Virus record (IMG/VR): IMGVR_UViG_3300025326_000225
Location: 1 to 21,962 of that record
Length of the DNA stretch: 21,962 nt
Source of the DNA: a virus
Strand: one strand, 5' to 3'
Shown here one piece after another: positions 3,532 through 19,115 of this stretch. The notes under the pieces are model-generated. The model had not been told where the DNA came from, searched no databases, and worked only from the letters and a program-made list of their open reading frames with translations. How positions within the stretch are numbered: the stretch's first letter is position 1; every line of letters starts with the position of its first letter. Position numbers and translations under genes: made by a program.

Positions 3532-4116
3532 GTGTCCGTACTATCTAACTATCACATATACGATGCGGTACGTAGACAAGAGGTTAGGATTCTTCCGTTT
3601 GACCCGAATATGATACAGCCTGCTTCCTACGATGTGCATCTTGGCGATAGCTTTGTTGTCTATAACAATATTTTTAGTGATAGCTACCCTGTGGACCCAC
3701 TTAGGAACGTGCCTACAGGAAAATATTTAGAAGGCTTAGATAGTATTATTATTAAATCAAAAGAATTTGTACTAGCGACTACCTTAGAGATTCTTGGATT
3801 AGATAATAATATTGTTGCACGAGTTGAGGGAGTTTCTTCTCTTGGACGTCTTGGACTAGCTGTTCATACCACTGCGGGGTATATTGATCCAGGGTTTCAT
3901 GGTCAAGTTACATTGGAATTATTTAACATGGCCCCGTACGCACTAAAGCTTACTGCCGGTATGAGAATTGCACAATTTGCATTCGAGCGATTGACTGGGC
4001 CGAGTAAGGGGTACGAGGGTAGGTACCAGTCGCAGATGGGGGTAACCAGGTCTCGATACAGTTCGGCCGACTACAGGACTAAGAATGATGTTGAACCGAA
4101 AGCTGAGTATTTGTAA
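3532..4116 (+). CDS. dcd: dCTP deaminase, probably bifunctional dCTP deaminase/dUTPase
   Basis: This 194-residue enzyme converts dCTP towards dUTP and, in the bifunctional subfamily, on to dUMP, the precursor of dTTP. The core motif at about residues 98-131 matches the family: VEGVSSLGRLGL with Ser102, Ser103 and Arg106, then HTTAGYIDPGFHG, then VTLELFN with the catalytic Glu129. AGMRIAQFAFERL and the C-terminal YQSQMGVTRSRY fit the nucleotide-binding tail. The pattern is closer to the mycobacterial bifunctional enzyme (EGKSSLGRLGL) than to E. coli Dcd, except that the residue before SSLGRLG is Val rather than Lys or Arg. It starts at GTG 3532 behind GGAGG and overlaps terL by one base, so it is probably co-expressed with packaging genes. 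The family is very secure; bifunctionality is inferred. Confidence 0.93.
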   Translation: MSVLSNYHIYDAVRRQEVRILPFDPNMIQPASYDVHLGDSFVVYNNIFSDSYPVDPLRNVPTGKYLEGLDSIIIKSKEFVLATTLEILGLDNNIVARVEGVSSLGRLGLAVHTTAGYIDPGFHGQVTLELFNMAPYALKLTAGMRIAQFAFERLTGPSKGYEGRYQSQMGVTRSRYSSADYRTKNDVEPKAEYL

Positions 4117-5597
4117 TGGTGGTGACAACTACTAATGCTAAATTCGTCGAGGATTTAGAAAAGAAGAAGGTACCTTGGATTCTTGGACGTTGGCCACAAA
4201 CCAACGAAGAGTTATGGATGTTCGTCAGAACAGTATGGGGAGTGGAGATTCCCTACCGGGCGGTGTGCCCTAACCATGTTTCGCCTTTTCAGGCTTTTGC
4301 TGACGCTTACTTTGCTAGACACCCTGTCGCGATATGGGAAGGAAGTCGAGGGTTCTCCGGAAAAACTTTTACCCTTGGACTTCTGGCTTGCACGGAGATG
4401 CTTACGCTCAAGTGCTTTGTTACTATTCTTGGTGGTTCGGCTGAACAATCGCTCCGTGTTCACGAAGCTATGCAGCAGTTTCTTGACAGTGATGCCACTC
4501 CTGCTTCTGTAAAGAACATGGTGGACATCATGACCCGCTTTGATACGAGGTTGTCGAATGGTGCCAAAGCACGTACTCTTATGGCGTCGCAGAAGTCGGT
4601 TCGTGGCCCGCACCCACAAAGGCTACGGCTTGACGAAGTCGATGAAATGGACTACGAGCTATTCAAAGCAGCACAGGGTCAGCCAATGCGGAGCAAGAGG
4701 CTACCTAATGTCGAGACACAGACAGTAGCCTCGTCGACTCACCAATATCCAGACGGTACGATGACAAAGCTCAAGCAAGATGCAAAAGAAAAAGGATGGC
4801 CGTTATATCGCTGGTGCTATAAAGAGACTAGTGACATGGCGCACGGAGGTTGGCTTTCGCCTAAAGAAGTGGCAAGGAAGCGTAAAGAAATCTCCAAAGA
4901 AATGTGGAAGATGGAATACGATTTGCTCGAACCTTCATTTGAAGGACGAGCAATTGACCCAGATTCCGTATCTGCTATGTTTGATACTGCTTTGGGTATA
5001 TATCGTGGGGTTCCTATGAAAAACCACGAGTTTGCGGAACCTCGTAGGGATAGGGACTATATTACGGGGGTTGACTGGGCGTCAGCTCAAGACTGGACAG
5101 TTGTTTGGACTTGGGACGTTACTAAATTACCGTGGGTTTGCGTTGCCTTTCAACGGTGCCAGAAGTTACCATGGCCTATAATCATTAAATTTGCTAGTAT
5201 GAGATTGGCTAGATGGGGCGGTAAGTTCATTCACGACGCGACTGGAATAGGTGGGGTGGTGAAGGATATGATTGATATTCCTTCAGGTATGACCCCGCGC
5301 GACGTCAAGGACGAGGTGCTTAGTCAAAAGAATCGTATGAACATGCTTTCGGAATATGTTGCCGCTATTGAGCGTGGCGACTTACGCTGCCCCCGAGTAA
5401 TATGGGCTTATGACGAACATAGGTTTGCCACTAACGAGCATCTTTATGGTCGCCTCCATTTACCCGACTCTATCTGTGCTGGTGCGTTGGCATGGAGTAT
5501 GCGTAAGAAGGGATTACGGCAGTCTCAGATAGCAGCTCCTGATATTAGTGACGCTACTAAACGAGACGGCGGAGTATCCCCGTGGAAGTTGGTGTGA
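4116..5597 (+). CDS. terL: Terminase large subunit (packaging ATPase and nuclease)
   Basis: TerL powers DNA translocation through the portal and cuts the concatemer. At 493 aa the length is typical. The ATPase domain holds a Walker A at about residues 75-84 (EGSRGFSGKT), a Walker B at 171-174 (RLDE) and a coupling motif near 205-208 (ASST). The RNase H-like nuclease follows, with Asp320 in TGVDWASAQDW, Asp374 in FIHDATGIGG and Asp451 in LPDSICAGALAW as likely metal ligands. The ATG overlaps the dcd stop (TAATG). No small terminase is obvious in the window; one of the small upstream proteins could play that part but I cannot assign it. The next gene begins directly after the stop. Confidence 0.95.
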   Translation: MVVTTTNAKFVEDLEKKKVPWILGRWPQTNEELWMFVRTVWGVEIPYRAVCPNHVSPFQAFADAYFARHPVAIWEGSRGFSGKTFTLGLLACTEMLTLKCFVTILGGSAEQSLRVHEAMQQFLDSDATPASVKNMVDIMTRFDTRLSNGAKARTLMASQKSVRGPHPQRLRLDEVDEMDYELFKAAQGQPMRSKRLPNVETQTVASSTHQYPDGTMTKLKQDAKEKGWPLYRWCYKETSDMAHGGWLSPKEVARKRKEISKEMWKMEYDLLEPSFEGRAIDPDSVSAMFDTALGIYRGVPMKNHEFAEPRRDRDYITGVDWASAQDWTVVWTWDVTKLPWVCVAFQRCQKLPWPIIIKFASMRLARWGGKFIHDATGIGGVVKDMIDIPSGMTPRDVKDEVLSQKNRMNMLSEYVAAIERGDLRCPRVIWAYDEHRFATNEHLYGRLHLPDSICAGALAWSMRKKGLRQSQIAAPDISDATKRDGGVSPWKLV

Positions 5598-5598
5598 A

Positions 5599-6144
5599 AT
5601 GGTAGCTGCTATATACGACATGTCAATTGAACAAGGCGCCACATTTGAAATGACTGTATATTCTTTACCGGCGTCCACTACCTTTGTACCAAGTGTTCTT
5701 GCCGAGGTGTTAGGGCGAGATCTTGTGGCGTCCAGACCTACCACAGGTAACTCTAAAGGAGACTTGTGGTATGACGCTACATTGACGCCTACAGCTCGTT
5801 GGTCGCGATGGAGTGGCACGGCATGGGCCAACGTGACACCTACCGATCTGACTGGCTGGTCAGCCCGACTCATGTTCAGGAAGACTTTCCAAGATGCTAC
5901 CGCAATTCTTTCGCTCACCTCACCGTCGGTATCAGGCAAGGGTTTGGATCTCGGCGGGCAAAACGGCTCTGTCACTATTAAAATCCCTGCTGCTGATACT
6001 ACTGCTGTTGACGCTACTTGGGCTGGTAATATCTCTGGTGTTTACGACTTGGAAGTCTTCGACACTAGCACCCCTGTAGTTGTTAATCGTATTGCGCAGG
6101 GTAAGTGGAATCTTGTCATAGAAGCGACAAGGCCAACACCATGA
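5599..6144 (+). CDS. Virion-associated beta protein, BppU-like layout, 181 aa
   Basis: The frame is open from 5548 inside terL, but ATG 5599, one base after the terL stop, is preferred; ATG 5620 (MSIEQGATF) is also possible. The opening 'MSIEQGATFEMTV' and the later DLTGWSARLMFRK, SVTIKIPAADT and SGVYDLEVFD follow the layout of short beta-sandwich phage proteins such as the BppU N-terminal type: 'query a quantity, apply the domain, return a strand-rich sandwich'. Residues about 45-82 look inserted and carry GDLWYDA and WSGTAWANV, a 'GDLWYD...W.G.AW' motif common in phage fibre proteins. It opens the virion-surface cassette. The function is not established. Confidence 0.7.
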   Translation: MVAAIYDMSIEQGATFEMTVYSLPASTTFVPSVLAEVLGRDLVASRPTTGNSKGDLWYDATLTPTARWSRWSGTAWANVTPTDLTGWSARLMFRKTFQDATAILSLTSPSVSGKGLDLGGQNGSVTIKIPAADTTAVDATWAGNISGVYDLEVFDTSTPVVVNRIAQGKWNLVIEATRPTP

Positions 6145-6632
6145 CAAATATTGTCTCTACACCGACTGCTCAGGTCGTCATTATACAATCAACCGGGGCC
6201 TCTTCTGTTATTTCTGCGTCCACTACTCCACAAATAGTGGTGTCAAATTTAACATCCCAAAATATTTTTCGGACAATTGAAATCAAGATAATTTCTGATC
6301 TTACTGCATTACTTACCGGTGATCTACTCACCTTCTGTATTCCGTCTGATTTTAACGGGATGAATTTAATAGATGCAGATGCTTATGTGACTACTGTGTC
6401 ATCTTCTGGACTTCCTACAGTACAGATAGTTAATGCGACACAAGGAAGCGTAAATATGCTCACTACTCCAATTACTATAGATGTGGGAGAAAAAACTTCT
6501 TATACTGCTGTTACCCCACCTGTAATTGATACGGCAAATGATGACGTGGCTACAGGAGACTTAGTGACTATTACTGTACCGACTAATGGCACGGGGGCTA
6601 AGGGGCTAGGCGTTATTTTGAGATTTGCCTAG
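6141..6632 (+). CDS. Beta-rich virion-associated protein, 163 aa
   Basis: The frame is open from 6105, but ATG 6141 overlaps the upstream stop (ATGA) and begins a clean beta-rich protein (MTNIVSTPTAQVVIIQSTG). Composition is rich in Thr, Ser, Ile and Val with few charged residues. Strand-like pieces continue to the end (GDLVTITVPTNGTG, then LGVILRFA). This is typical of small phage surface or decoration proteins. No catalytic motif or known domain is visible. It lies directly before a pair of small paralogous genes. Confidence 0.7.
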   Translation: MTNIVSTPTAQVVIIQSTGASSVISASTTPQIVVSNLTSQNIFRTIEIKIISDLTALLTGDLLTFCIPSDFNGMNLIDADAYVTTVSSSGLPTVQIVNATQGSVNMLTTPITIDVGEKTSYTAVTPPVIDTANDDVATGDLVTITVPTNGTGAKGLGVILRFA

Positions 6633-6640
6633 GAGTGGTG

Positions 6641-6844
6641 ATGGTAGACAGCAGAGCTGTAGGACGTTCGTCGGTAACTGAAGGGATAATTGTCAGAGCA
6701 GACGGAAAAGTAGAAGACTTAGGAATTTTGTCTCCTGACGAAAAACCTTTTCCGCCAGAATTTTTGACTTTAAGGGAGACAATAGAATACAAAGAGTCTA
6801 CTCAGACTGAAATAGATAAAGTAATAAGCGAGAAGGAAAAATAA
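6641..6844 (+). CDS. Small protein with a TRADGxVEDLG motif, 67 aa (paralogue of the next gene)
   Basis: AGGAG at 6631-6635 precedes ATG 6641; an upstream GTG at 6635 overlaps that site and is less likely. The core reads IIVRADGKVEDLGILS, followed by a Pro-rich stretch and a charged helix ending in KVISEKEK. The same core occurs in the adjacent gene (TVTRADGTVEDLGIIS), so the two are tandem paralogues. Such short strand-turn-strand proteins occur among phage tail-region genes, but no function is known to me. The stop overlaps the next start (TAATG). Confidence 0.65.
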   Translation: MVDSRAVGRSSVTEGIIVRADGKVEDLGILSPDEKPFPPEFLTLRETIEYKESTQTEIDKVISEKEK

Positions 6845-7020
6845 TGGGAAAAGCAAAAACTAAGGTTACGCTCGAAGCCACTGTTACTCGTGCAGATGGT
6901 ACAGTGGAGGATCTTGGCATAATTAGCCGAGAAGAGGTAGACAAGCTACCGGAGTGGTTTAGGGATCTTCAGAAGACTGAAGCGTTCAAAGCCCAGGAAG
7001 GGGTGATTGAAAATGGCTAA
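6844..7020 (+). CDS. Small protein with a TRADGxVEDLG motif, 58 aa (paralogue of the previous gene)
   Basis: This short gene starts in the TAATG overlap with the preceding gene and ends at TAA 7018-7020, overlapping the next ATG by 8 bases. It opens MGKAKTKVTLEATVTRADG, continues TVEDLGIISREEVDKLPEWF, and ends in a charged helix. Its VEDLGI core matches the upstream neighbour closely, which supports both as real genes that arose by duplication. The function is unknown; context suggests a virion component or assembly helper. Confidence 0.7.
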   Translation: MGKAKTKVTLEATVTRADGTVEDLGIISREEVDKLPEWFRDLQKTEAFKAQEGVIENG

Positions 7021-7405
7021 CGGAGATGTTGTAACGAACGTCGGTTTAGATGTTATTACAGATAGGTTAAAGTTTGCTGGTGTGGGAGGTGTTGCCGAGC
7101 CTAAGTTTGTTGCATGGGGGACTGGGACTACTACGCCAGCGGTTACTGATACTACTATTGAAACCGCTCCCGGTGAAGCGCGTACAGACGGGACAAGTTC
7201 ACAGCAGACTACTGATGTCACGGATGATACGTACAGAGTAGTAGGTACAATTACTGCTACTGCTACACGTGCCATTACTGAGGTTGGTTTATTTACTGCC
7301 TCGTCTGCTGGGTCGATGTTAGTACATAGTGTCTTCGACGTCATCAACCTGACTACGAACGACTCTATTACATTTACTCTTAACGTCGACTTCGACAACT
7401 CGTAA
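7013..7405 (+). CDS. Beta-rich structural protein, 130 aa, first of a tandem pair
   Basis: The ATG at 7013 is preferred over an upstream TTG at 7007; AGGAAGGGG lies shortly upstream. The sequence is an extended beta fold: MANGDVVTNVGLDVITDR, EPKFVAWGTGTT, then RVVGTITATATRAITEVGLF and a closing SITFTLNVDFDNS. It aligns along its whole length with the next gene. Proteins of this form (a conserved AWGTG near the start, then alternating strands, with ITEVGLFTA-like motif) are found among virion structural genes of several phages. The exact position in the particle is unknown. Confidence 0.75.
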   Translation: MANGDVVTNVGLDVITDRLKFAGVGGVAEPKFVAWGTGTTTPAVTDTTIETAPGEARTDGTSSQQTTDVTDDTYRVVGTITATATRAITEVGLFTASSAGSMLVHSVFDVINLTTNDSITFTLNVDFDNS

Positions 7406-7415
7406 GGAGGTTGAA

Positions 7416-7790
7416 ATGGCTGACGTAGTTACTAATGTTGGTGTTGACATTGTTACTGAGCGGATGCGTGCTGGTGGTATCGCAGAACCAAAGTTTGTAG
7501 CATGGGGTACGGGTGCTGGTACCGCTGCTGTCGCTGACACTACTTTATTTACTGAATCCGCTGAAGCACGCACGGACGGAACAAGCTCACAGCAGACTAC
7601 TTCTACTACGGATGATACTTACCGTGTCGTCGGAACAATTACCGCTACTGCCACTAGAGCTATTACTAACGCTGGGCTATTCACGGCGTCGTCTGCCGGT
7701 AGCATGTTGTGTAAGAGCGACTTCGCAACAATCAACCTTCTTACCAACGACTCGATCACATTTACGTTTAACGTCCAGTTCAACCAGTAA
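7416..7790 (+). CDS. Beta-rich structural protein, 124 aa, second of a tandem pair
   Basis: A strong Shine-Dalgarno (AAGGAGG at 7404-7410) precedes ATG 7416. The protein shares with its upstream copy DVVTNVG, EPKFVAWGTG, EARTDGTSSQQTT, DDTYRVVGTITATATRAIT, GLFTASSAGSML and a closing SITFTFNV. The largest difference is a three-residue gap near residue 20 and scattered substitutions. The DNA copies have drifted mainly at third positions, so the duplication is old. Both copies keep an intact frame and ribosome binding site, which argues that both are used. Perhaps they form a hetero-oligomer or occupy different symmetry positions. Confidence 0.75.
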   Translation: MADVVTNVGVDIVTERMRAGGIAEPKFVAWGTGAGTAAVADTTLFTESAEARTDGTSSQQTTSTTDDTYRVVGTITATATRAITNAGLFTASSAGSMLCKSDFATINLLTNDSITFTFNVQFNQ

Positions 7791-7802
7791 CGGGAGGTAG
7801 AG

Positions 7803-8240
7803 ATGCCTCACGTCTATACAGCTAGGAACACGGCGGCCCATTCGACTGCTATTACTATCCTTCAGTTGGGTACAGCCGCTGGCCATCCTATCGAGATACT
7901 TCGTGGGTGGGTTACTCAGGCCACTTCTACTACTAGTGCGCAGACTCATGTTCAGTTGTTGCGTGAATCAAACGCAATCACTGGTACTGGTGTGACTGAG
8001 ATAGAGCATGACACAGACGGACCAGCTTCTACTGTGACTGCGTTGCATACAGCTACAGCGGGCGGTACAGACGGAGACGTCATTATTCAGGAAGGGTTCA
8101 ACGTACTAAACGGGTGGTTATATCTTCCTGTTCCCGAAGAACGTATCTGGGTTCCAGTGTCTAGCTTTATATCAATAGCTTTCCCGGACGCTCCACCTAA
8201 CGTGACGTACGACTACGGTCTTACGTGGCGTGAATACTAA
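7803..8240 (+). CDS. Virion-associated beta protein, 145 aa
   Basis: ATG 7803 lies behind GGGAGG. The protein runs through strands such as AITILQLGTAAG, PIEILRGWVTQA and HVQLLRES, has a Gly/Thr-rich middle, and ends GWLYLPVPEERIWVP...YDYGLTWREY. Its layout (a strand with IEILRGW/IKLIEWG, a 'LLR' or 'LLEV' strand, a Pro-containing loop before W.P, and a final Trp-Glu strand) resembles the gene at 10253, so they are likely distant paralogues. No enzymatic motif is seen. A capsid- or tail-surface protein is the most likely role. Confidence 0.7.
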   Translation: MPHVYTARNTAAHSTAITILQLGTAAGHPIEILRGWVTQATSTTSAQTHVQLLRESNAITGTGVTEIEHDTDGPASTVTALHTATAGGTDGDVIIQEGFNVLNGWLYLPVPEERIWVPVSSFISIAFPDAPPNVTYDYGLTWREY

Positions 8241-8271
8241 AATTAGTTCGGTAGCGGAAGGGCGGTAGAAA

Positions 8272-9456
8272 ATGGCACTACAGACTCCTACCGCCTTGGA
8301 CTCTACCTTTACTCAAGCTACTGCTACTAACACCGCGACTAGTGGCTCGTTCACCGCGACCATAGATACTATGTTACTTGTTGCTATTGTTGCTACTGAC
8401 GACGCTGCTACTATCGGTGCTGTCACTATGACTAGCACTCATGCTGGTATAGATGACAACGATTGGGCTGGTCTTGAAGCTGAGATGGTCGGTGGCTCTG
8501 AAAGAATGATGGCAACACTGTATTGGGTTAATCCTACATCCACTGGCTCAGGGACAGTGACAGTCACATTGGGCACGACTGTTGATCGCTTCCATATACG
8601 ACCTTTGCAGATAACATCAGATGATCCAGCTAAGAGACCGACACATACTGGCGGCGGAGAAATAGCAGACGCTACTGCTGCTGGTTCAGCTTCATTTACA
8701 TTGTCTAGTGCTCCAGCTACCTCTTCATATGTTATCGGTTGTATAGGTTCTTGGAACGAGGGTGGGGACATTACAGCTGGTGCTACTTACACCGAACTTT
8801 TTGAAATGTTTGCCGGTACCATTGGTGAGGATAGAATAAATAGTCAAATTCAATATAGAACTTCTTCTACTAGTACGACATTAGACTGGGGCGGATTAAA
8901 CACTATAGCCAACTCTGGTGTTGGCTACGAGATACTGGAAGAAGATGCACCTGCTGGTGAGGCACCTGGTTATACCACTGAGAATCTATATGGTGCTACA
9001 GGGCCTAGTGCTAGTAACACTGGCGTAGATAGTACGGGTACATACTGGTCTGCGAAAACTAGAGGATTGTGCACTGGTGGCAGGTATTACAAGCAAGCAG
9101 CTACACCTACTGGTGCCGGCACGATGAAACTATGGAGTGGTGCTGGGTCAGAGCTAGCTTCGGCAGGATTTACTATTGGTGCGGGAGATCCAAACAGTGC
9201 CTGGTACGAAGTATTGTTCTCTACACCGATAGCGATAACTCCTTTCACTCAGTACGTCATTTCTGTGTCGTATTTTTCTAGCTTCTATCACGTGACTATT
9301 CCTTTCGCGCCACAAACAATAAGTGGCAATATACGAGATATGTCTTCACAGTATAACGCTACTGCGAACCTGTTTCCAAATACTGACGTTGGCAACAAAT
9401 ACTGGATAGACGTTCTGTTTTTAGCAGGCCCTATATCTTGCAACAGGTGGGGCTGA
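8272..9456 (+). CDS. Two-domain virion-surface protein with a DUF4082-like C-terminal module, 394 aa
   Basis: A start at ATG 8272 follows GGAAGGGCGG. Residues 1 to about 225 are an Ala/Thr/Ser-rich beta domain of the type seen again in the next gene (LLVAIVATDD early, a Trp/Tyr strand with LYWVNPTS, a GCIGSW strand late). After a linker near EEDAPAGEAPG, residues about 240-360 resemble DUF4082 modules: a conserved start (TTENLYGATGPS), GGRYYKQAATPTG, MKLWSGAGSELAS, WYEVLFSTPIAI and QYVISVSYFS. DUF4082 is found in secreted carbohydrate-related proteins, so glycan binding is plausible. Adsorption is inferred, not shown. Confidence 0.75.
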   Translation: MALQTPTALDSTFTQATATNTATSGSFTATIDTMLLVAIVATDDAATIGAVTMTSTHAGIDDNDWAGLEAEMVGGSERMMATLYWVNPTSTGSGTVTVTLGTTVDRFHIRPLQITSDDPAKRPTHTGGGEIADATAAGSASFTLSSAPATSSYVIGCIGSWNEGGDITAGATYTELFEMFAGTIGEDRINSQIQYRTSSTSTTLDWGGLNTIANSGVGYEILEEDAPAGEAPGYTTENLYGATGPSASNTGVDSTGTYWSAKTRGLCTGGRYYKQAATPTGAGTMKLWSGAGSELASAGFTIGAGDPNSAWYEVLFSTPIAITPFTQYVISVSYFSSFYHVTIPFAPQTISGNIRDMSSQYNATANLFPNTDVGNKYWIDVLFLAGPISCNRWG

Positions 9457-9457
9457 C

Positions 9458-10243
9458 ATGACTATCTCTATTGTTACAGGTGGGCAGACTACTGACCTGG
9501 GTCAAATAGACACGTCGTCGCCGTTCGGGAACAGGACTATCGTATTGCCGACTGGTCATGCGGCTAACGATCTGTTGCTTCTCGGTGCGGGTGTCAAAGA
9601 TTTTGCTACGACGATGACAGTTAATACTTTTACTGCTACTAGCACAATTACAAATGGTACTACTGCTGGGGGGCTTGACGTCGGTTCTATGCGGTGTAGT
9701 GCTTGGTACAAGGTTGATGACGGTTCGGAAACAGATCCGATAATTATTTTTTCTGCTGCTTATAACCCTATGATGGCTTGGAATTTGGGCTTGCGTTCTA
9801 CTATTATTGCCGATACATGGGTGGTGACTAACACTACTGCTACGGACGCGACCGCTACGGGTACGACGTTTAGTGCGACGGGAGCAGCGACACTAGGTTT
9901 TAATACTGGTGACTGGGTAGTTGTTTTTGCCTCATGTAAAACCGACGGGGCGGCTATGACCTCTGGTGCTATTACTGCTACAGGGGCTACGTTTGGTTCT
10001 CTCACAGAACAGATCTCTGACAATATTACTACGGCTGGTAATGACGGTGCATTTTACTGTTGGACCGGTGAGGTGTCTGCCGGTCCTGCTACTGCCGCTC
10101 CTGTATTCACCGCAACGATGGCTAGTGGTCTTTCGGACGGGTCGTGTATTATTTTACGTATTCAAGAACCTGTGTTGGGAGCACCGCTAGGTAGTTCTAA
10201 TATGGTAACCAAACAGGCAATTAACAGAGCGAGTTTTTGGTAG
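9458..10243 (+). CDS. Virion-surface beta protein, 261 aa, related to the N-domain upstream
   Basis: The ATG comes one base after the previous stop. The protein has few charged residues and many Thr, Ala and Gly. Recognisable strands include RTIVLPTGHAANDLLLLGAG, CSAWYKVDDGSE, GDWVVVFASCKTDG and CIILRIQEPVLG. The order (L-rich strand, Trp-Tyr strand, 'GDWVVVFAS' strand, Trp-containing strand, closing strand) parallels the N-terminal domain of the gene before it. Similar phage proteins are annotated only as minor tail or hypothetical. A tail- or capsid-surface sandwich is the best guess. Confidence 0.7.
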   Translation: MTISIVTGGQTTDLGQIDTSSPFGNRTIVLPTGHAANDLLLLGAGVKDFATTMTVNTFTATSTITNGTTAGGLDVGSMRCSAWYKVDDGSETDPIIIFSAAYNPMMAWNLGLRSTIIADTWVVTNTTATDATATGTTFSATGAATLGFNTGDWVVVFASCKTDGAAMTSGAITATGATFGSLTEQISDNITTAGNDGAFYCWTGEVSAGPATAAPVFTATMASGLSDGSCIILRIQEPVLGAPLGSSNMVTKQAINRASFW

Positions 10244-10252
10244 GGAGGTGTC

Positions 10253-10774
10253 ATGTCATTATTCATAGGGTTCAACTCGGCGCTGTCTGTTACTACGACC
10301 ATAGATGTCGGTACTAGCTATGCTGCTGGCGTCAAAGTAGCTTTGCAGCTCAATGTGCCGGACCAAGGGACTATAAAGTTGATTGAATGGGGAGTGAGTT
10401 TCAACGGGTCGGCTGCTGCTACTCCCGCACTTCTTGAAGTGGCGACCACAGATGCAGCTTCGACAATGACTACTGCACACTCGACGACGACAATTAAATG
10501 TCTTGACGTCCAGGCCGCTGCTGCACCCGCGTCACGCCTGACTATGGGGACGACCGCCACTGGATTCGGGCTCGGTGGCATCACGTCCAACACGACGCTC
10601 AGGCCACTGGACAGGCAGTACGTCGCTCCGACCAACCAGTACGTCAAGATGTGGCCGCTAGGGCGTGAGCCTGTCATAGGGAGCGCAGCAACGGAGTCCT
10701 TCCTTCAGTTCCGTATCAACACGTCGGCTACTGTGACGGCAATTCTTTATGCGGTCTGGGAAGAAAATATCTAA
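10253..10774 (+). CDS. Virion-associated beta protein, 173 aa
   Basis: GGGAGG precedes ATG 10253. Strand-rich pieces include GVKVALQLNVPDQG, IKLIEWGVSFNG, ALLEVATTDA, LRPLDRQYVAPTNQYVKMWP and TAILYAVWEENI. The shape resembles the 145-residue gene at 7803. The 3' half uses more G/C-ending codons than the 5' half, perhaps from recombination. The stop overlaps the next ATG (TAATG). Small proteins of this form are frequent in actinophage virion regions, usually without an assigned function. Confidence 0.7.
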   Translation: MSLFIGFNSALSVTTTIDVGTSYAAGVKVALQLNVPDQGTIKLIEWGVSFNGSAAATPALLEVATTDAASTMTTAHSTTTIKCLDVQAAAAPASRLTMGTTATGFGLGGITSNTTLRPLDRQYVAPTNQYVKMWPLGREPVIGSAATESFLQFRINTSATVTAILYAVWEENI

Positions 10775-11298
10775 TGCCTCTTATACCAGGTAACCTACTG
10801 TCTGAAGACGAGCAGTCTATTGAGACTAGTGTGGCTGCGTGGGATACTTGGTTTCCGGCGGCTTCGGCAGTAACTAGAGTATCTACCGTTGCTCATGACG
10901 GTACCTGGTCTCTTAGGGCTACAAGCAATGGTGTTGGGAATGACACTCTTTTTGGTCAAAATAGAAGTACAGTAGTCACTCCTAATACACAGTACACATA
11001 TAGTGCTTGGGTTTACACTACACTTAGTGGCCATACGATGCGCTTGGTTACTGACTATTGGCGATCTGACGAATCTACTTTTACTGAGTTCAAAGATGGT
11101 ACGTTCGTAGCAATTCTTCCTAGTACCTGGACTCAATTAGTTACTCATCATACTCCCATAGATGGGACTACCGCACGAGCACAACAGTATATTGCAGTAG
11201 GTACAACACCAATTTCCGGGGATTTTTTCTATGCGGACGAGATATTCTTTGGTATCTCAGGACCACCTTTGATATCTCGTAATAGCTGGACTAGTTAG
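10774..11298 (+). CDS. Carbohydrate-binding-module-like jelly-roll protein, 174 aa
   Basis: The pattern fits a CBM4/9-like or galactose-binding jelly roll. An N-terminal strand carries TWFPAASAVTRV, followed by the hallmark 'AHDGTWSLRATS', then TPNTQYTYSAWVYTT, a Trp strand WTQLVTHHTP, and a final FFYADEIFFG strand that usually closes a metal-bound sandwich. In secreted enzymes these modules bind sugars; in phages they often sit on fibres or capsids. No catalytic residue is seen. It lies directly before the first repeat protein and may dock on it. The domain call is fairly good; the ligand is unknown. Confidence 0.75.
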   Translation: MPLIPGNLLSEDEQSIETSVAAWDTWFPAASAVTRVSTVAHDGTWSLRATSNGVGNDTLFGQNRSTVVTPNTQYTYSAWVYTTLSGHTMRLVTDYWRSDESTFTEFKDGTFVAILPSTWTQLVTHHTPIDGTTARAQQYIAVGTTPISGDFFYADEIFFGISGPPLISRNSWTS

Positions 11299-11313: not shown

Positions 11314-12723
11314 ATGACTAGGATAGGGCGTGGTTTTCCAGCGCGTCGCTATGTCCTCACCCAACAAGCTACAGCTCCTGCTGCTGGTGGCGCTGACACA
11401 CCTAAGAGTATTAACTACACTGTCACGGCGATACAGTCGAATACTACTGTTGTAGCTGTATCACATGGATATATAGCGTTAACTACACAGACTGTTCTTA
11501 CTGATGTCGGTCAGTTAATTGGGTATACAGTTACTGTAACTCAAACTAATCTTACCAATATTGGTGCTATCCGTAATTATGTAGTTAGCCTGCCACAAAC
11601 TAATTTTACTAGCGTTGGCCAATTAATTAATTATTCTGCAACCGTTTCTCAAACTAAGACAGTTGCAATTAATCATGCTTTAACTAAGAATTATACTGTT
11701 GCAGTCACTCAAACAAACACTACTGCCATTAGTAAGACTCTTGGTTATATAGTTACTGGGTCTCAATCTGTTCTTACTAATGTCAGTAAGATTAGGCCGT
11801 ATGTTGTCACCGTCACTCAAACTGTTACTGACACACAGAACAGAGTAAAGACTCTTAACTATTTGGTCACTGTTTCTCAGTCGAATACCGAGAATGTCAG
11901 TAAGACTGTAGGGTATGTTTCGGTAGTTACCCAATCTGGCGCCTTGAATGTTGGGAAGACTAGCGGATATATATCTACCGTCACTCAGTCGAGCACTTTA
12001 GACGTCGGTAAAGCCCGTGGGTATATAGCGACTGTTACTCAATCGGTCGCAACGCTTGTCTCACAAAGTGTCATCAAGAACTATACAGTAAATGTCTCGC
12101 AGACAAATACTGAGAATGTTGGCAAGATTCGTGGATATATCGTTCTACCCACTCAGTCTCACACCGATAACGTTAGCGTTATACACAATTATATAGTTAA
12201 TATCCCACAAACTAATTTCACGAATGTCGGTCAGTTACTTAATTACTCGGTAACAGTATCGCAAACAAAGACAGCATTTATTACCCATGCTCTAACTAAG
12301 AACTATGCTGTTGCCGTCACTCAGACAAATACTGAGAATGTTGGCAAGACATCAAGCTATGTGTCGACTGTAACTCAAACAAATATAGAAAGCATCTCTA
12401 TTGCTCATGTTTATCTTGCTATAGCCACTCAAACTAACACTACTAATATTGGTAAGACACTCGGATATGTCACAATTGCTACACAGACCAACACTGAAAA
12501 TATTGGGCACGCTTCTGTGTACGTCGTTAATGTGTCTTTGACGAAGACCAAGAGTGTAGGCGCGGTACATGGGTACGTCGCATTAACGTCACAGATGGTT
12601 ACAACGGCGGTTGGTCATACTTCTAGCTATACTGTGGTTGTCACACAAACTGTGTCTACATTGACAGAAATAGTAGTTGTGCCAATGCGTTCCCGCTTAT
12701 TCAACCCTGTCTACAGGATGTAG
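11314..12723 (+). CDS. 18-residue repeat protein A, putative fibre, 469 aa
   Basis: A 34-residue head (MTRIGRGFPARRYVLTQQ, then a linker ending GADTPKSIN) is followed by about 23 tandem units of consensus YxVxVxQTNTENVGKTxG. Each unit is 18 residues except four of 20 (starting at residues 107, 163, 237 and 311). The tail MRSRLFNPVYRM closes the protein. Every unit begins with Tyr and has an alternating hydrophobic strand, a Gln, a polar Thr/Asn turn, a short Val/Ile strand, and Lys then Gly/Asn. This suggests stacked beta coils (beta-solenoid) or a trimeric beta-spiral shaft. Cysteine is absent and charge is low. An elongated virion fibre is the likely role. A tape measure is unlikely because those are helical. 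Confidence 0.8.
   Translation: MTRIGRGFPARRYVLTQQATAPAAGGADTPKSINYTVTAIQSNTTVVAVSHGYIALTTQTVLTDVGQLIGYTVTVTQTNLTNIGAIRNYVVSLPQTNFTSVGQLINYSATVSQTKTVAINHALTKNYTVAVTQTNTTAISKTLGYIVTGSQSVLTNVSKIRPYVVTVTQTVTDTQNRVKTLNYLVTVSQSNTENVSKTVGYVSVVTQSGALNVGKTSGYISTVTQSSTLDVGKARGYIATVTQSVATLVSQSVIKNYTVNVSQTNTENVGKIRGYIVLPTQSHTDNVSVIHNYIVNIPQTNFTNVGQLLNYSVTVSQTKTAFITHALTKNYAVAVTQTNTENVGKTSSYVSTVTQTNIESISIAHVYLAIATQTNTTNIGKTLGYVTIATQTNTENIGHASVYVVNVSLTKTKSVGAVHGYVALTSQMVTTAVGHTSSYTVVVTQTVSTLTEIVVVPMRSRLFNPVYRM
11416..12681 (+). repeat. 54-bp coding repeat array A (about 23 units)
   Basis: The array encodes 18-residue units, four of them lengthened to 60 bp. Nucleotide copies have drifted strongly and protein conservation exceeds DNA conservation; many differences are synonymous. 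Stretches such as CAGACAAATACTGAGAATGT recur almost exactly, leaving scope for recombination between units. Confidence 0.9.
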
Positions 12724-12725
12724 TC

Positions 12726-13271
12726 ATGAAAATCTATGTCCAGTGGTCGCAGAGCCACCCACAAGACTATGTCGCCTACGACTCGTCTGAGTGGAGCAAT
12801 CTTCCGAATAAAGGAGAACCTCTCTCCGATGTTCGTGGTGGCAGCGACGACGACTACGGTTGGATAAACAGACTTAATGTTCAAGGTGTTAGTTTTCCTC
12901 ATGACAAGCTTGCGGTAGAAGAGATAGAAGACGGTGGTATACGTGTCTATGCATGGGAGGACGACAAAGAAGACTACGCTCCCGAAGACTACTGTGCTCG
13001 TATATGGACGTTTCTACCGTTATTTAAGGACCCGAGTGTCGGCGGATTATGGAATACCAAACAAAGTAGGGTAATATTTGCAGGATCTAATCTCTACGAT
13101 AGGTGGGTCGGGTTCGGTCCTGTAGAGAATACAGAAATACTACCGTGGTCTGACTGGACACCACCATCACTTGCTATCACTAGGTTTGGTATATGGCTTC
13201 CTTACGAGTTATACGTGGCTCATGTAGAGGCTGCGCCTAATAAAGACTTCAGAGAGTGGGCTGGTGAATAA
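12726..13271 (+). CDS. Acidic, Trp/Tyr-rich protein between the two repeat genes, 181 aa
   Basis: The ATG is two bases after the first repeat gene, and the stop overlaps the start of the second (TAATG). Unlike its neighbours it is acidic and aromatic, with no repeats: MKIYVQWSQSHPQDYVAYD, VRGGSDDDYGWINRLN, GGIRVYAWEDDKEDYAPEDY and FGIWLPYELYVAHVEAA. It looks like a compact globular domain. Fibre genes are often next to a gene for a folding helper or an attachment protein, so either is possible. The family is not recognised. Tight coupling to both repeat genes is the strongest functional clue. Confidence 0.75.
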   Translation: MKIYVQWSQSHPQDYVAYDSSEWSNLPNKGEPLSDVRGGSDDDYGWINRLNVQGVSFPHDKLAVEEIEDGGIRVYAWEDDKEDYAPEDYCARIWTFLPLFKDPSVGGLWNTKQSRVIFAGSNLYDRWVGFGPVENTEILPWSDWTPPSLAITRFGIWLPYELYVAHVEAAPNKDFREWAGE

Positions 13272-15823
13272 TGACCAAGACCTACTATCTGAGAAGCACT
13301 GTCGATCCGACTGGTGTCCATGCTGCTGATATCGAAAGAGCGCTTGGTACAACTGCTGGATCAAGTACAGCAACAGTTAGTTCTGTTCTTGGTGGTGGTG
13401 CTAGTACATTATCTTTTTGTTTAACCACTCCATCTAATGAACCCAATGTTGCAGATTGGCCAAGTGGTACATATCGATGCATATTTAATGCTAGTACGGC
13501 TGATGCTGATATTACATTTGGTCTCAGAACTGCTGGTTCTGCTGCTGGCCACTTTGCTCGTGTTAATTCTGGGCTTACGTCTGATCTTGAGACAACTACA
13601 CAAGCAGAGGCGCTGTTCAGTGGCACTGGTGTTAAGACAGCGACCGTTTCTTGGGATCCGTCGGCAGGTAGTTCTACGGACAGGTTTGAATGCTTAATAG
13701 CTGCTACACGGGCAGCAAGCCATGGTAACCAGACACTATCTATAGATGTCGACAACCCTAGTGCTGACGCTACTAACGGCGGTATAGCAGATGGCCCGTG
13801 GGTTGGGGCTACTGACACCCCTAAGACTGTCAATTATATTGTAACAGCTTCGCAAACTAATACAGAAAATGTTGGAACAATACGTGGTTATGTAGCTACT
13901 GTATCTGAAACAAATAATACAGAGGTTGGCAAAATACTAGGCTATGTAGCTCTAGCCACACAATCTAATACTACTAATGCTTCTAAAACTTTGAATTATG
14001 TGTCTACAGTTACTCAATCTGTTGTTACAGCTTTGTCCCATGGTTTAATCAAGAATTATATTGTCAATATTACTCAGACAAATATTGAGAATGTTGGCAA
14101 GGTATCTAATTATGTATCATTAGTAACTCAAACAAATATAGAAAATATTTCTTTTATCCGTAACTATACTACTATAGTCTCTCAATCTAACACTGAGAAT
14201 ATCAGTAAAACGCGCGGTTATATCGTTACCGTAATTAGCACTGTAGGTACACAATTTAATCCTGGCGAAGGGCCAACCGCATATAGCGCATTCCGAAAGA
14301 AGGTATTCGCCTACGACAAGAGTGGTACTTTCCGAGCATATAGCTATAGGTACGCACGTAACGAACTTATATTCTTCGTAACATCTACCGATACACCTAA
14401 GACACTTAACTATACAGTTAACGTCTCCCAAACCAACACGGAAAATACTAGTAAGACTATTGGATATACTTCGACAGTCTCACAAACTAATATTGAAAAT
14501 GTTAGTACATCAAAAAATTATGTTGCAACAACTACTGAATCAAACACTACTGACGTTGGTAAGATTAGAGCTTACGTATCTACAGTCAGTCAAACTGTTA
14601 CTGATACGGAGAATAGAGCAAAAACTCTTAATTATAATGTCAATGCAACTCAATCGAACACTGAAAATGTCGGAAAAACTAGTAGTTACCTAGCCACAGC
14701 TACTAGCACTGTAACAACTATGGTTGGTAAGACACGCGGCTACGTAGTTTTAGTTACTCAATCAGTCTCAACACTAGTTTCTCAGAATGTCGTTAAGAAC
14801 TACATAGTCAATGTATCTCAAACAAATACTGAGAATGCAACATTCTCACGAGCATACTTGGTACTTTCGACTCAAACAAATACTGAAAATGTTGGTAAGA
14901 CTAGAAGTTATTTAAGCACTATTTCTAACTCTGTTACTACGGATGCTAACAAGAGTCGTAATTATGTTGTTGCAGTAATCCAGACTAATACTAGAGTCGA
15001 GACTACTACTCTTACTTTAAATTATTCTGTTAATGTTAGTCAGACAAGCGCGCTAAACGCTGGCAAGATTAGAACTTACATCTCCACAATTACACAGTCT
15101 AATACTACTGCCGTCAGTACAACACATAATTATGTAGTTAATTTACCTCAGACTAATTTCACTAATGTTGGTCAGGTCCTTAACTATACTGTCAATGCTA
15201 CTCAGTCTGTCACTAAGATCCAGTCTCAGGGTAAGACTATTAACTATTCTGTGAATGTTTCACAGACTAAGAGTAAGGCAATAACTGATGCCGGTACAAA
15301 CTACACGGTCAATGTTTCCCAAACAGGAACTGTCAGTGTCGGTAAGATACGGGACTACATAACTCTTGTCAATCAATCCAACACTACTAGCGTCGGATTC
15401 TCTCGTGCTTATGCCTCTGCTGTGTCCCAAACAAATACAGAGACTACAGGAGTCAGTAAGACATATATATCTCAGATATCTTCGACGTTAAGAAAAAATG
15501 TCGGAAAGATCAGGGGCTATTCCTCTACTGTTTCCACAACTAATACTACTAACGTAGGTAAGATTCGTGTTTACGCTGCTAACATATCGCAGACTCACAC
15601 ACGTGCTTCTAATTATAATCGCACAAAGATATACTCTGTCGTAGTCAGTCAGAGTAATACAGAAGCAATGTCAATAGACAGAGATTATTTGACGATAGTT
15701 ACGAATACACCCACTACAGCGGTTAACAAGAGTAAGATGTATACTCTGACAGTAAACCAAACATCGACTAGCGTCGTATCCGGAAGTGACCCGCACTATC
15801 CTCAAATATTCATCATTCTATAG
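13271..15823 (+). CDS. 18-residue repeat protein B with N-terminal sandwich domain, putative fibre, 850 aa
   Basis: Residues 1-180 are a beta-sandwich-like head (KTYYLRSTVDPTG, TYRCIFNAST, FECLIAATRAAS). Then TDTPKTVN introduces seven tandem units of the same YxVxVxQTNTENVGKTxG type as protein A. Residues about 327-380 break the array with a basic aromatic insert (YSAFRKKVFAYD, FRAYSYRYARNEL) ending STDTPKTLN, and about 25 further units follow. Units of 20 residues start at 243, 435, 491, 565, 639 and 768; one of 19 starts at 659. The C-terminus HYPQIFIIL is hydrophobic. A long fibre or spike with an N-terminal docking or binding domain fits best. It is likely a relative and partner of protein A. 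Confidence 0.8.
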   Translation: MTKTYYLRSTVDPTGVHAADIERALGTTAGSSTATVSSVLGGGASTLSFCLTTPSNEPNVADWPSGTYRCIFNASTADADITFGLRTAGSAAGHFARVNSGLTSDLETTTQAEALFSGTGVKTATVSWDPSAGSSTDRFECLIAATRAASHGNQTLSIDVDNPSADATNGGIADGPWVGATDTPKTVNYIVTASQTNTENVGTIRGYVATVSETNNTEVGKILGYVALATQSNTTNASKTLNYVSTVTQSVVTALSHGLIKNYIVNITQTNIENVGKVSNYVSLVTQTNIENISFIRNYTTIVSQSNTENISKTRGYIVTVISTVGTQFNPGEGPTAYSAFRKKVFAYDKSGTFRAYSYRYARNELIFFVTSTDTPKTLNYTVNVSQTNTENTSKTIGYTSTVSQTNIENVSTSKNYVATTTESNTTDVGKIRAYVSTVSQTVTDTENRAKTLNYNVNATQSNTENVGKTSSYLATATSTVTTMVGKTRGYVVLVTQSVSTLVSQNVVKNYIVNVSQTNTENATFSRAYLVLSTQTNTENVGKTRSYLSTISNSVTTDANKSRNYVVAVIQTNTRVETTTLTLNYSVNVSQTSALNAGKIRTYISTITQSNTTAVSTTHNYVVNLPQTNFTNVGQVLNYTVNATQSVTKIQSQGKTINYSVNVSQTKSKAITDAGTNYTVNVSQTGTVSVGKIRDYITLVNQSNTTSVGFSRAYASAVSQTNTETTGVSKTYISQISSTLRKNVGKIRGYSSTVSTTNTTNVGKIRVYAANISQTHTRASNYNRTKIYSVVVSQSNTEAMSIDRDYLTIVTNTPTTAVNKSKMYTLTVNQTSTSVVSGSDPHYPQIFIIL
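13835..14218 (+). repeat. 54-bp coding repeat array B1 (7 units)
   Basis: Seven units, one of 60 bp, each coding Tyr-led 18-residue coils, follow the TDTPKTVN leader. The array ends where unit 8 runs into a non-repeat insert. Confidence 0.9.
14249..14410 (+). other. Non-repeat insert between arrays B1 and B2
   Basis: This encodes about 54 residues rich in Tyr, Phe, Arg and Lys, then STDTPKTLN. The same TDTPKT leader precedes the other two arrays (GADTPKSIN in protein A, ATDTPKTVN in B1), so this segment looks like the retained front end of a formerly separate array. Confidence 0.7.
14411..15793 (+). repeat. 54-bp coding repeat array B2 (about 25 units)
   Basis: Units of 18 residues with five of 20 and one of 19. 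Late units diverge most (RASNYNRTKI, STLRKNVGKIRG). Subtypes match array A: TVTDTxNRxKTLN, SVxTLVSQxVxKN and PQTNFTxVGQxLN occur in both proteins. Confidence 0.9.
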
Positions 15824-18338: not shown

Positions 18339-19115
18339 TTGGCCGACGAAGAGTTTATATTGAAATTTACACCTGGCCCCTGTAGTTTGAATCGTTCTCC
18401 TAAAAAGAATTGGGTAGAAAATGCTGGGGGATTGCCAAACTATACGTGTCATGTAGCCAGGGCATTGCACGAGAAACGTGGCTTTTCTATTAGCCACGCT
18501 ATTGCTACTGCTGTATCGCAGAACAAGAAACGTATAGCTACCGGTAAGACGTCCGGAACTAAGGCACGGGCAGCGGGAGCTACAGCCGAGTGGGAAGCCA
18601 AGCGAGCTAAGTCCAAGGCGAAGACAGCAGCTAAGTTAGCGAAGACATTTGACGAAAGCCCTGTTATATTAGATGACATGCGCGACCCTGACTTTGACCT
18701 AAATCTGGCAGAGTTCCAACTGGACGTGCCTATTGCCAAGATCGACGAGGACAAGCGTCTCGCCTTCGGGTGGGCATCGGTAGCCAAGCGCAAGGATGGA
18801 ACGATCATCAGCGACCTCCAAGGCGACGAGATTCGTGATCTTGATGCTATGGAAGACGTCGCATATAAGTTTGTTACAGATTGTCGCGATGGTGGCGAAA
18901 TGCACGTACGCAAGGGGGTCGCTCAGCTCGTCGAGTCCTTCATGGTCACCCCGGAGAAGTTAGAGAAGATGGGATTACCGGAAGGCTCTCTACCGGTGGG
19001 GTGGTGGGTTGGGTACCGGGTCAATGACGAGGACGTCTGGAAAGGCGTCAAGGATGGTAAGTACACCCAATTTTCTGTCCACGGTAGGGGCCGCAGAACG
19101 ATCTTGGAGGACTGA
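18339..19115 (+). CDS. Prohead maturation protease, XkdF family, 258 aa
   Basis: XkdF-type serine proteases cleave scaffold and capsid during maturation. The TTG at 18339 is chosen for the near-perfect Shine-Dalgarno; the frame is open back to 18252 but that part only shadows MuF. Residues 10-70 carry a leader motif seen in phage proteases and scaffolds (NWVENAGGLPNY, then RGFSISHAIATAV). An Ala/Lys-rich helix follows. Residues 130-250 are the protease: RLAFGWASVAKRKDG, ISDLQGDEI, EMHVRKGVAQLVES with candidate catalytic His179 and Ser190, and PVGWWVGYRVNDEDVW. The family call is strong; the exact catalytic residues are inferred from the conserved pattern. Confidence 0.9.
   Translation: MADEEFILKFTPGPCSLNRSPKKNWVENAGGLPNYTCHVARALHEKRGFSISHAIATAVSQNKKRIATGKTSGTKARAAGATAEWEAKRAKSKAKTAAKLAKTFDESPVILDDMRDPDFDLNLAEFQLDVPIAKIDEDKRLAFGWASVAKRKDGTIISDLQGDEIRDLDAMEDVAYKFVTDCRDGGEMHVRKGVAQLVESFMVTPEKLEKMGLPEGSLPVGWWVGYRVNDEDVWKGVKDGKYTQFSVHGRGRRTILED

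Follow-up and report, generated by a model that had tools for sequence, protein, structure and literature searches.

Two repeat proteins between terminase and portal

The window, by which we mean the whole stretch of DNA analysed here, is 21,962 bases long, a genome fragment from a tailed phage that has not been cultivated; its genes run in the order lysin, dCTP deaminase, terminase, a 10-kb cassette, portal, a Mu F-like protein, an XkdF-like protease and the major head protein. The cassette, bounded by terminase and portal and carried on one strand, contains the genes for two proteins, P0001 and P0002, that are built largely from a short repeat. The features are as follows.

4116..5597, + strand: terminase large subunit, the upstream border of the cassette
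5548..11298, + strand: remainder of the cassette, encoding small fibre-type proteins
7007-7405: match to a PHROG tail fiber family (phrog_4176) in the cassette
8272-9456: DUF4082 match in the cassette
10774-11298: CBM_4_9 match in the cassette
11314..12723, + strand: P0001, repeat protein, 469 aa, ~23 units
11416-12681, + strand: the 23 Y-led units of P0001 (residues 35-456)
within 11314..12723, + strand: short C-terminal PMRSRLFNPVYRM of P0001
12726..13271, + strand: 181-aa non-repeat ORF between P0001 and P0002, overlapping the P0002 start (TAATG)
13271..15823, + strand: P0002, repeat protein, 850 aa, ~32 units plus a non-repeat N-terminal domain and one insert
13271..13834, + strand: N-terminal non-repeat domain of P0002 (residues 1-188)
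13835..14218, + strand: first repeat block of P0002, 7 units (residues 189-316)
14219..14410, + strand: insert in P0002, ~64 aa (residues 317-380)
14411..15793, + strand: second repeat block of P0002, ~25 units (residues 381-841)
15779..15820, + strand: C-terminal tail of P0002, SGSDPHYPQIFIIL, identical in the related phage L008
15836..17659, + strand: portal protein (Portal_Mu), the downstream border of the cassette

The earlier note had placed the two reading frames correctly, at 11314-12723 and 13271-15823 on the + strand, but had called them adjacent giant proteins consisting almost wholly of about 23 and 33 repeats. The 181-aa non-repeat ORF (12726-13271) separates them, lengths of 469 and 850 aa hardly qualify as giant, and while the count of ~23 holds for P0001, P0002 has ~32 units and is only ~70% repeat once its 188-aa N-terminal domain and ~64-aa insert are set apart. 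The insert consists, in order, of a broken unit, a unique YSAFRKKVFAYDKSGTFRAYSYRYARN segment and a DTPKTLN re-entry motif. Searches of Pfam, phages and IMG/VR found nothing that matches the N-terminal domain of P0002, and the intervening ORF is an orphan with no relatives in the libraries or loci searched.

The neighbours of these genes are of fibre type, which fits the fibre reading of the earlier note, both in the window and in another phage, L010, whose cassette is syntenic with that of the window (terminase 96% and portal 94% identical). The L010 cassette encodes two tailspike-like proteins with BppL_N repeats and pectate-lyase-like domains, which match PHROG tail fiber/tail protein families, as well as a CBM-like domain; each of the two cassettes encodes carbohydrate-binding as well as jelly-roll-like domains. 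Judged by these matches, the interval from terminase to portal in L010 and the window group is a fibre module, and P0001 and P0002 belong by position to the fibre/tailspike class of a tailed phage. One further observation concerns a C-terminal VYRM ending that is common to P0001 (window 12682-12720) and a jelly-roll-like protein of L010 (3722-3772) and that could possibly serve as a docking tag.

An 18-residue tyrosine-led unit

Self-comparison of P0001 and P0002 gives a peak at lag 18 (mean BLOSUM62 score 1.17 and 0.57, respectively) that lies far above the maxima of 200 shuffles (-0.10 and -0.22), with additional peaks at lags 36 and 56. The unit is 18 residues long, with a regular minority of 20-residue units that often fall at every third or fourth position, and regular stretches follow the pattern LsssLsss, where L is 20 aa, to give a super-period of 74 residues. 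Over 58 units the consensus has Y1 (100%), V/A/I at position 5, Q7 (81%), [TS]8 (97%), N9 and T10, followed in the second half by N12, V/I13 (81%), [GS]14 (91%), K15 and R17, in agreement with the YxVxVxQTNTENVGKTxG and the Y-led 18-residue period that the earlier note had given for both proteins. The repeat proteins are rich in Thr (19%), Ser (9-12%) and Asn (8-11%). Tandem Repeats Finder detects no corresponding array at the DNA level, which indicates that the protein repetition is old and does not stem from recent expansion or an assembly artefact; the P0001 and P0002 genes do align in segments of 32-188 bases that are 73-91% identical in DNA.

Searches of Pfam, PHROG, NCBIfam and PDB sequences with P0001 and P0002 returned nothing past the cut-off, so the earlier impression that the repeat has no counterpart in named families stands; MAPKK1_Int and NF033849 matches fell far below the cut-off, look compositional and were rejected. 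PDB sequence searches were empty with single proteins and with profiles, as was tblastn against INPHARED phages and PLSDB plasmids, for which masking of low-complexity sequence is an improbable cause, since masked searches recover the window, L008 and L010 locally. The repeat is a sequence family new to the libraries searched, but the type of object, a phage fibre made of short beta repeats, is already known.

AlphaFold2 monomer predictions were of low confidence both for an 8-unit fragment (13 aligned rows, mean pLDDT 33.6, pTM 0.23) and for full-length P0001 (4 aligned rows, mean pLDDT 40.2, pTM 0.35), so that no fold is established. Both of these low-confidence models nevertheless place about one strand of 8-11 residues in each unit, 18 residues apart, plus a 2-residue bridge; in that of P0001 the strands fall at 346-356, 364-374, 382-392, 400-409, 418-427 and 436-445. 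The strand content fits the beta-rich repeat originally suggested. The earlier note had named a low-confidence prediction among the outcomes that would refute it. We do not take it as refutation: with alignments this shallow, and for a fibre that folds solely as an oligomer, low monomer scores are to be expected. The models speak, if weakly, against an obvious monomeric solenoid and would fit a fold requiring more than one chain. A structure search of the PDB with the models found nothing similar, and no solved or viral structure was reliably matched; Foldseek matches of such low-confidence models were set aside and are not used as evidence.

Signatures of known repeat folds were likewise sought. 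The left-handed beta-helix, raised in the earlier note on account of its 18-residue turn, finds no backing in tandem [LIV]-[GAED]-x2-[STAV]-x hexapeptides, which are not beyond chance: pairs numbered 0, 0 and 1 across the three proteins tested (P0001, P0002 and P0005), and single-hexapeptide counts were near shuffled values in P0002 and P0005 and mildly raised in P0001 (16 vs 9.1 +/- 2.8). Curlin repeats follow the pattern S-x5-Q-x4-N-x5-Q, and the window unit resembles that of curli CsgA in its x-x5-Q-x4-N spacing but differs in having neither Ser1 nor Gln18; the full pattern has 0 matches in the repeat proteins, and Curlin_rpt (PF07012) has none at E<=10, with a positive E. coli control. RTX nonapeptides (GGxGxDx[LIVFY]) also gave 0 matches.

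Relatives and divergence

The family is rare, with three distinct phages found in IMG/VR by scans that were seeded by exact short peptide patterns and may miss more distant relatives. One of the records, L009, is the same phage as the window and near identical to it; it has 35 and 27 additional bases at window positions 18902 and 20645, which are repeat-type indels or assembly differences and alter the protease and a scaffold-like ORF. In L008 the same repeat protein adjoins the portal gene, and in L010 the homologue P0003 (1340 aa) is strongly decayed (profile E=1.8e-10). In L008, L009 and L010 alike, the family gene lies immediately upstream of portal.

P0003 has periods of 18, 36, 20 and 38. 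It retains Y1, the hydrophobic residues at 3, 5 and 13, K15 and the 18/20 period, but the QTNTENVG loop sequence is gone, as expected if the fold depends on the strand and its spacing while the loops can vary freely. Its N-terminal domain also occurs as a stand-alone protein in the same L010 cassette, indicating that domains are shuffled. A PQ[IV]xx core terminates the portal-adjacent proteins of the window, L008 and L010 (P0003, 9954-9983), and also that of L017 (15267-15296), where the body is unrelated and beta-helix-like and the match is short and was noticed post hoc.

The portal proteins of the window and L008 are 95.4% identical (dN 0.03), whereas the aligned repeat gene is only 53.2% identical in amino acids (dN 0.39); its last 24 codons, in contrast, retain 95.8% amino acid and 94% nucleotide identity. 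The repeat gene thus diverges much faster than portal yet keeps a conserved end, the pattern of a receptor-binding module, and with a dN/dS of ~0.14 at a dS near saturation it changes fast under structural constraint. Among 10 aligned units Y1 is retained in all and Q7 in 90%, and the colinear partner is the best match for 7 of the 10, which speaks against rapid homogenisation of the array. No reverse transcriptase, and hence no sign of a diversity-generating retroelement, was found in the window, L010 or L008, all of which are fragments.

Other phages of the portal group carry repeat proteins nearby. In L034 and L035 a 20-residue repeat protein of phrog_14065 lies just upstream of portal (L034:454-1773, L035:8377-9696), and in L062 another (6265-7386) is found 1 kb upstream of terminase; these repeats are of the ATEVDLALAxGKAKAKAFTL and ETDTA type, with period z-scores of 11 to 26. 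A 1264-aa protein adjoining terminase in L061 (2817-6608) carries a weak fn3 match and jelly-roll-like segments ahead of the 18-residue Ala/Thr/Val repeat (TATAVLVISATG) with which it ends. The phrog_14065 proteins resemble P0001 and P0002 in that they contain short repeats, here of 20 residues, and are encoded at or close to the corresponding locus in phages with related portals, but there is no profile match in either direction, nor does the window repeat profile match the L061 protein, so the likeness is one of design rather than of demonstrated common descent. A genome scan with a capsid fragment found no match, and one with the portal alignment found a single one, a Patescibacteria bin with a distant portal; close upstream of that portal homologue, L018:2-2842 encodes a 947-aa protein that matches M14 carboxypeptidase and contains a repeat of 22 residues (GDVTITATPNSTLDYNINPEIT).

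A candidate host-facing fibre shaft

Their position in a fibre cluster, together with divergence far faster than that of their neighbours, suggests that P0001 and P0002 are probably host-attachment fibres. We think the odds moderately favour their being structural, host-facing proteins of a tail-fibre module, with a beta-structured shaft that is likely an intertwined homo-oligomer. In such a shaft each unit would contribute one beta-strand of 8-11 residues (Y1-x-V3-x-V5-x-Q7); after it the chain would make a polar turn (TNTEN), point one hydrophobic side chain inward (V13) and continue as a basic segment (GKxR). Units would stack along the axis into a long rod, most likely as an intertwined homo-oligomer, assumed to be a trimer, rather than as a free monomer. 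The last ~24 residues of P0002, as their conservation between the window and L008 shows, are the constant end and presumably the attachment end. The body of P0002 is the fast-changing part, and what it presents to the host is probably loops or domains of carbohydrate-binding type. The repeat and its period, the genomic setting, the homologues and the pattern of divergence are observed; the place in the virion, the oligomeric state, the fold and the binding of a host are inferred.

Comparable shafts exist. The triple beta-spiral of adenovirus-type fibres is also a viral shaft of short tandem beta repeats, and its ~17 residues per 15 A are close to 18, but in that fold a unit comprises a pair of antiparallel strands with a tight Gly/Pro turn (PMC7565637), whereas the unit here has 18 or 20 residues and, in the low-confidence models, one predicted strand. 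The beta-bracelet of the Orsay virus head fibre, a pentamer with an N-terminal coiled coil whose fold exists as an oligomer only (PMC7565637), is similar in that every repeat supplies one short strand and a loop and has hydrophobic positions pointing inward; it differs in its 8-residue unit and its (V/L)x2Vx4V consensus, which is not that of the window repeat. The tandem BACON repeats of crAss-like phages are likewise tied to tail genes and have been proposed to bind the host (PMC6949934), but there the repeat is a whole domain rather than an 18-residue unit, and P0001 and P0002 have no Pfam match.

Other readings of the same proteins have to be weighed. The position of the cassette immediately upstream of portal and head genes is unusual: among the 46 portal-group records with a detectable terminase, the two genes are mostly less than 3 kb apart, and the distance from terminase to portal reaches 5-10 kb in the window, L035, L017 and L070/L074. 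That makes a head-fibre role possible, with a similar rod attached to the capsid as a fibre or decoration protein, and a collagen-like protein in the terminase-portal interval of L017 points the same way; the neighbours, however, match tail fibre, BppL_N and pectate-lyase-like tailspike families, and we consider attachment to the head unlikely. Low AlphaFold2 confidence and the abundance of Thr, Ser and Asn would also suit largely disordered spacer arrays with no defined fold, but a strict Tyr every 18 residues with alternating hydrophobic residues, retained in P0003 despite the loss of its loops, a period constrained at saturated dS and a strand-rich prediction all make this quite improbable.

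The remaining alternative, to which we give a low probability, is a monomeric beta-solenoid with one coil per 18- or 20-residue unit, forming a short rod of ~110-155 A at 4.8 A per coil instead of a long oligomeric shaft. Solenoids commonly have coils of 18 residues, and in the best full-length model of P0001 regular strands recur at intervals of exactly 18, accompanied by short accessory ones; against it are a pLDDT that is low over stretches as long as 8 and 23 units, the absence of hexapeptide, curlin and RTX signatures, and the empty PDB fold search.

Returning to the oligomeric shaft, it is tempting to go further and propose that the Y-led 18/20 unit represents a new fibre architecture, an oligomer with one strand and a long polar loop per chain per layer that tolerates near-complete loop replacement between the window and L010, and that relatives exchange one shaft for another at or close to this locus, drawing on several sequence-unrelated families of 18-20-residue repeats, in some cases with a constant C-terminal tag. 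This is a speculative proposal that we hold to be somewhat unlikely in its entirety. Fibre shafts determine how phages reach and recognise their hosts, and few fibre folds are known; if the proposal is right, it would show phages swapping whole shafts while one end stays constant, and protein design would gain a new stable repeat in the form of an 18-residue unit that is simple, has an invariant tyrosine and lets its loops change freely.
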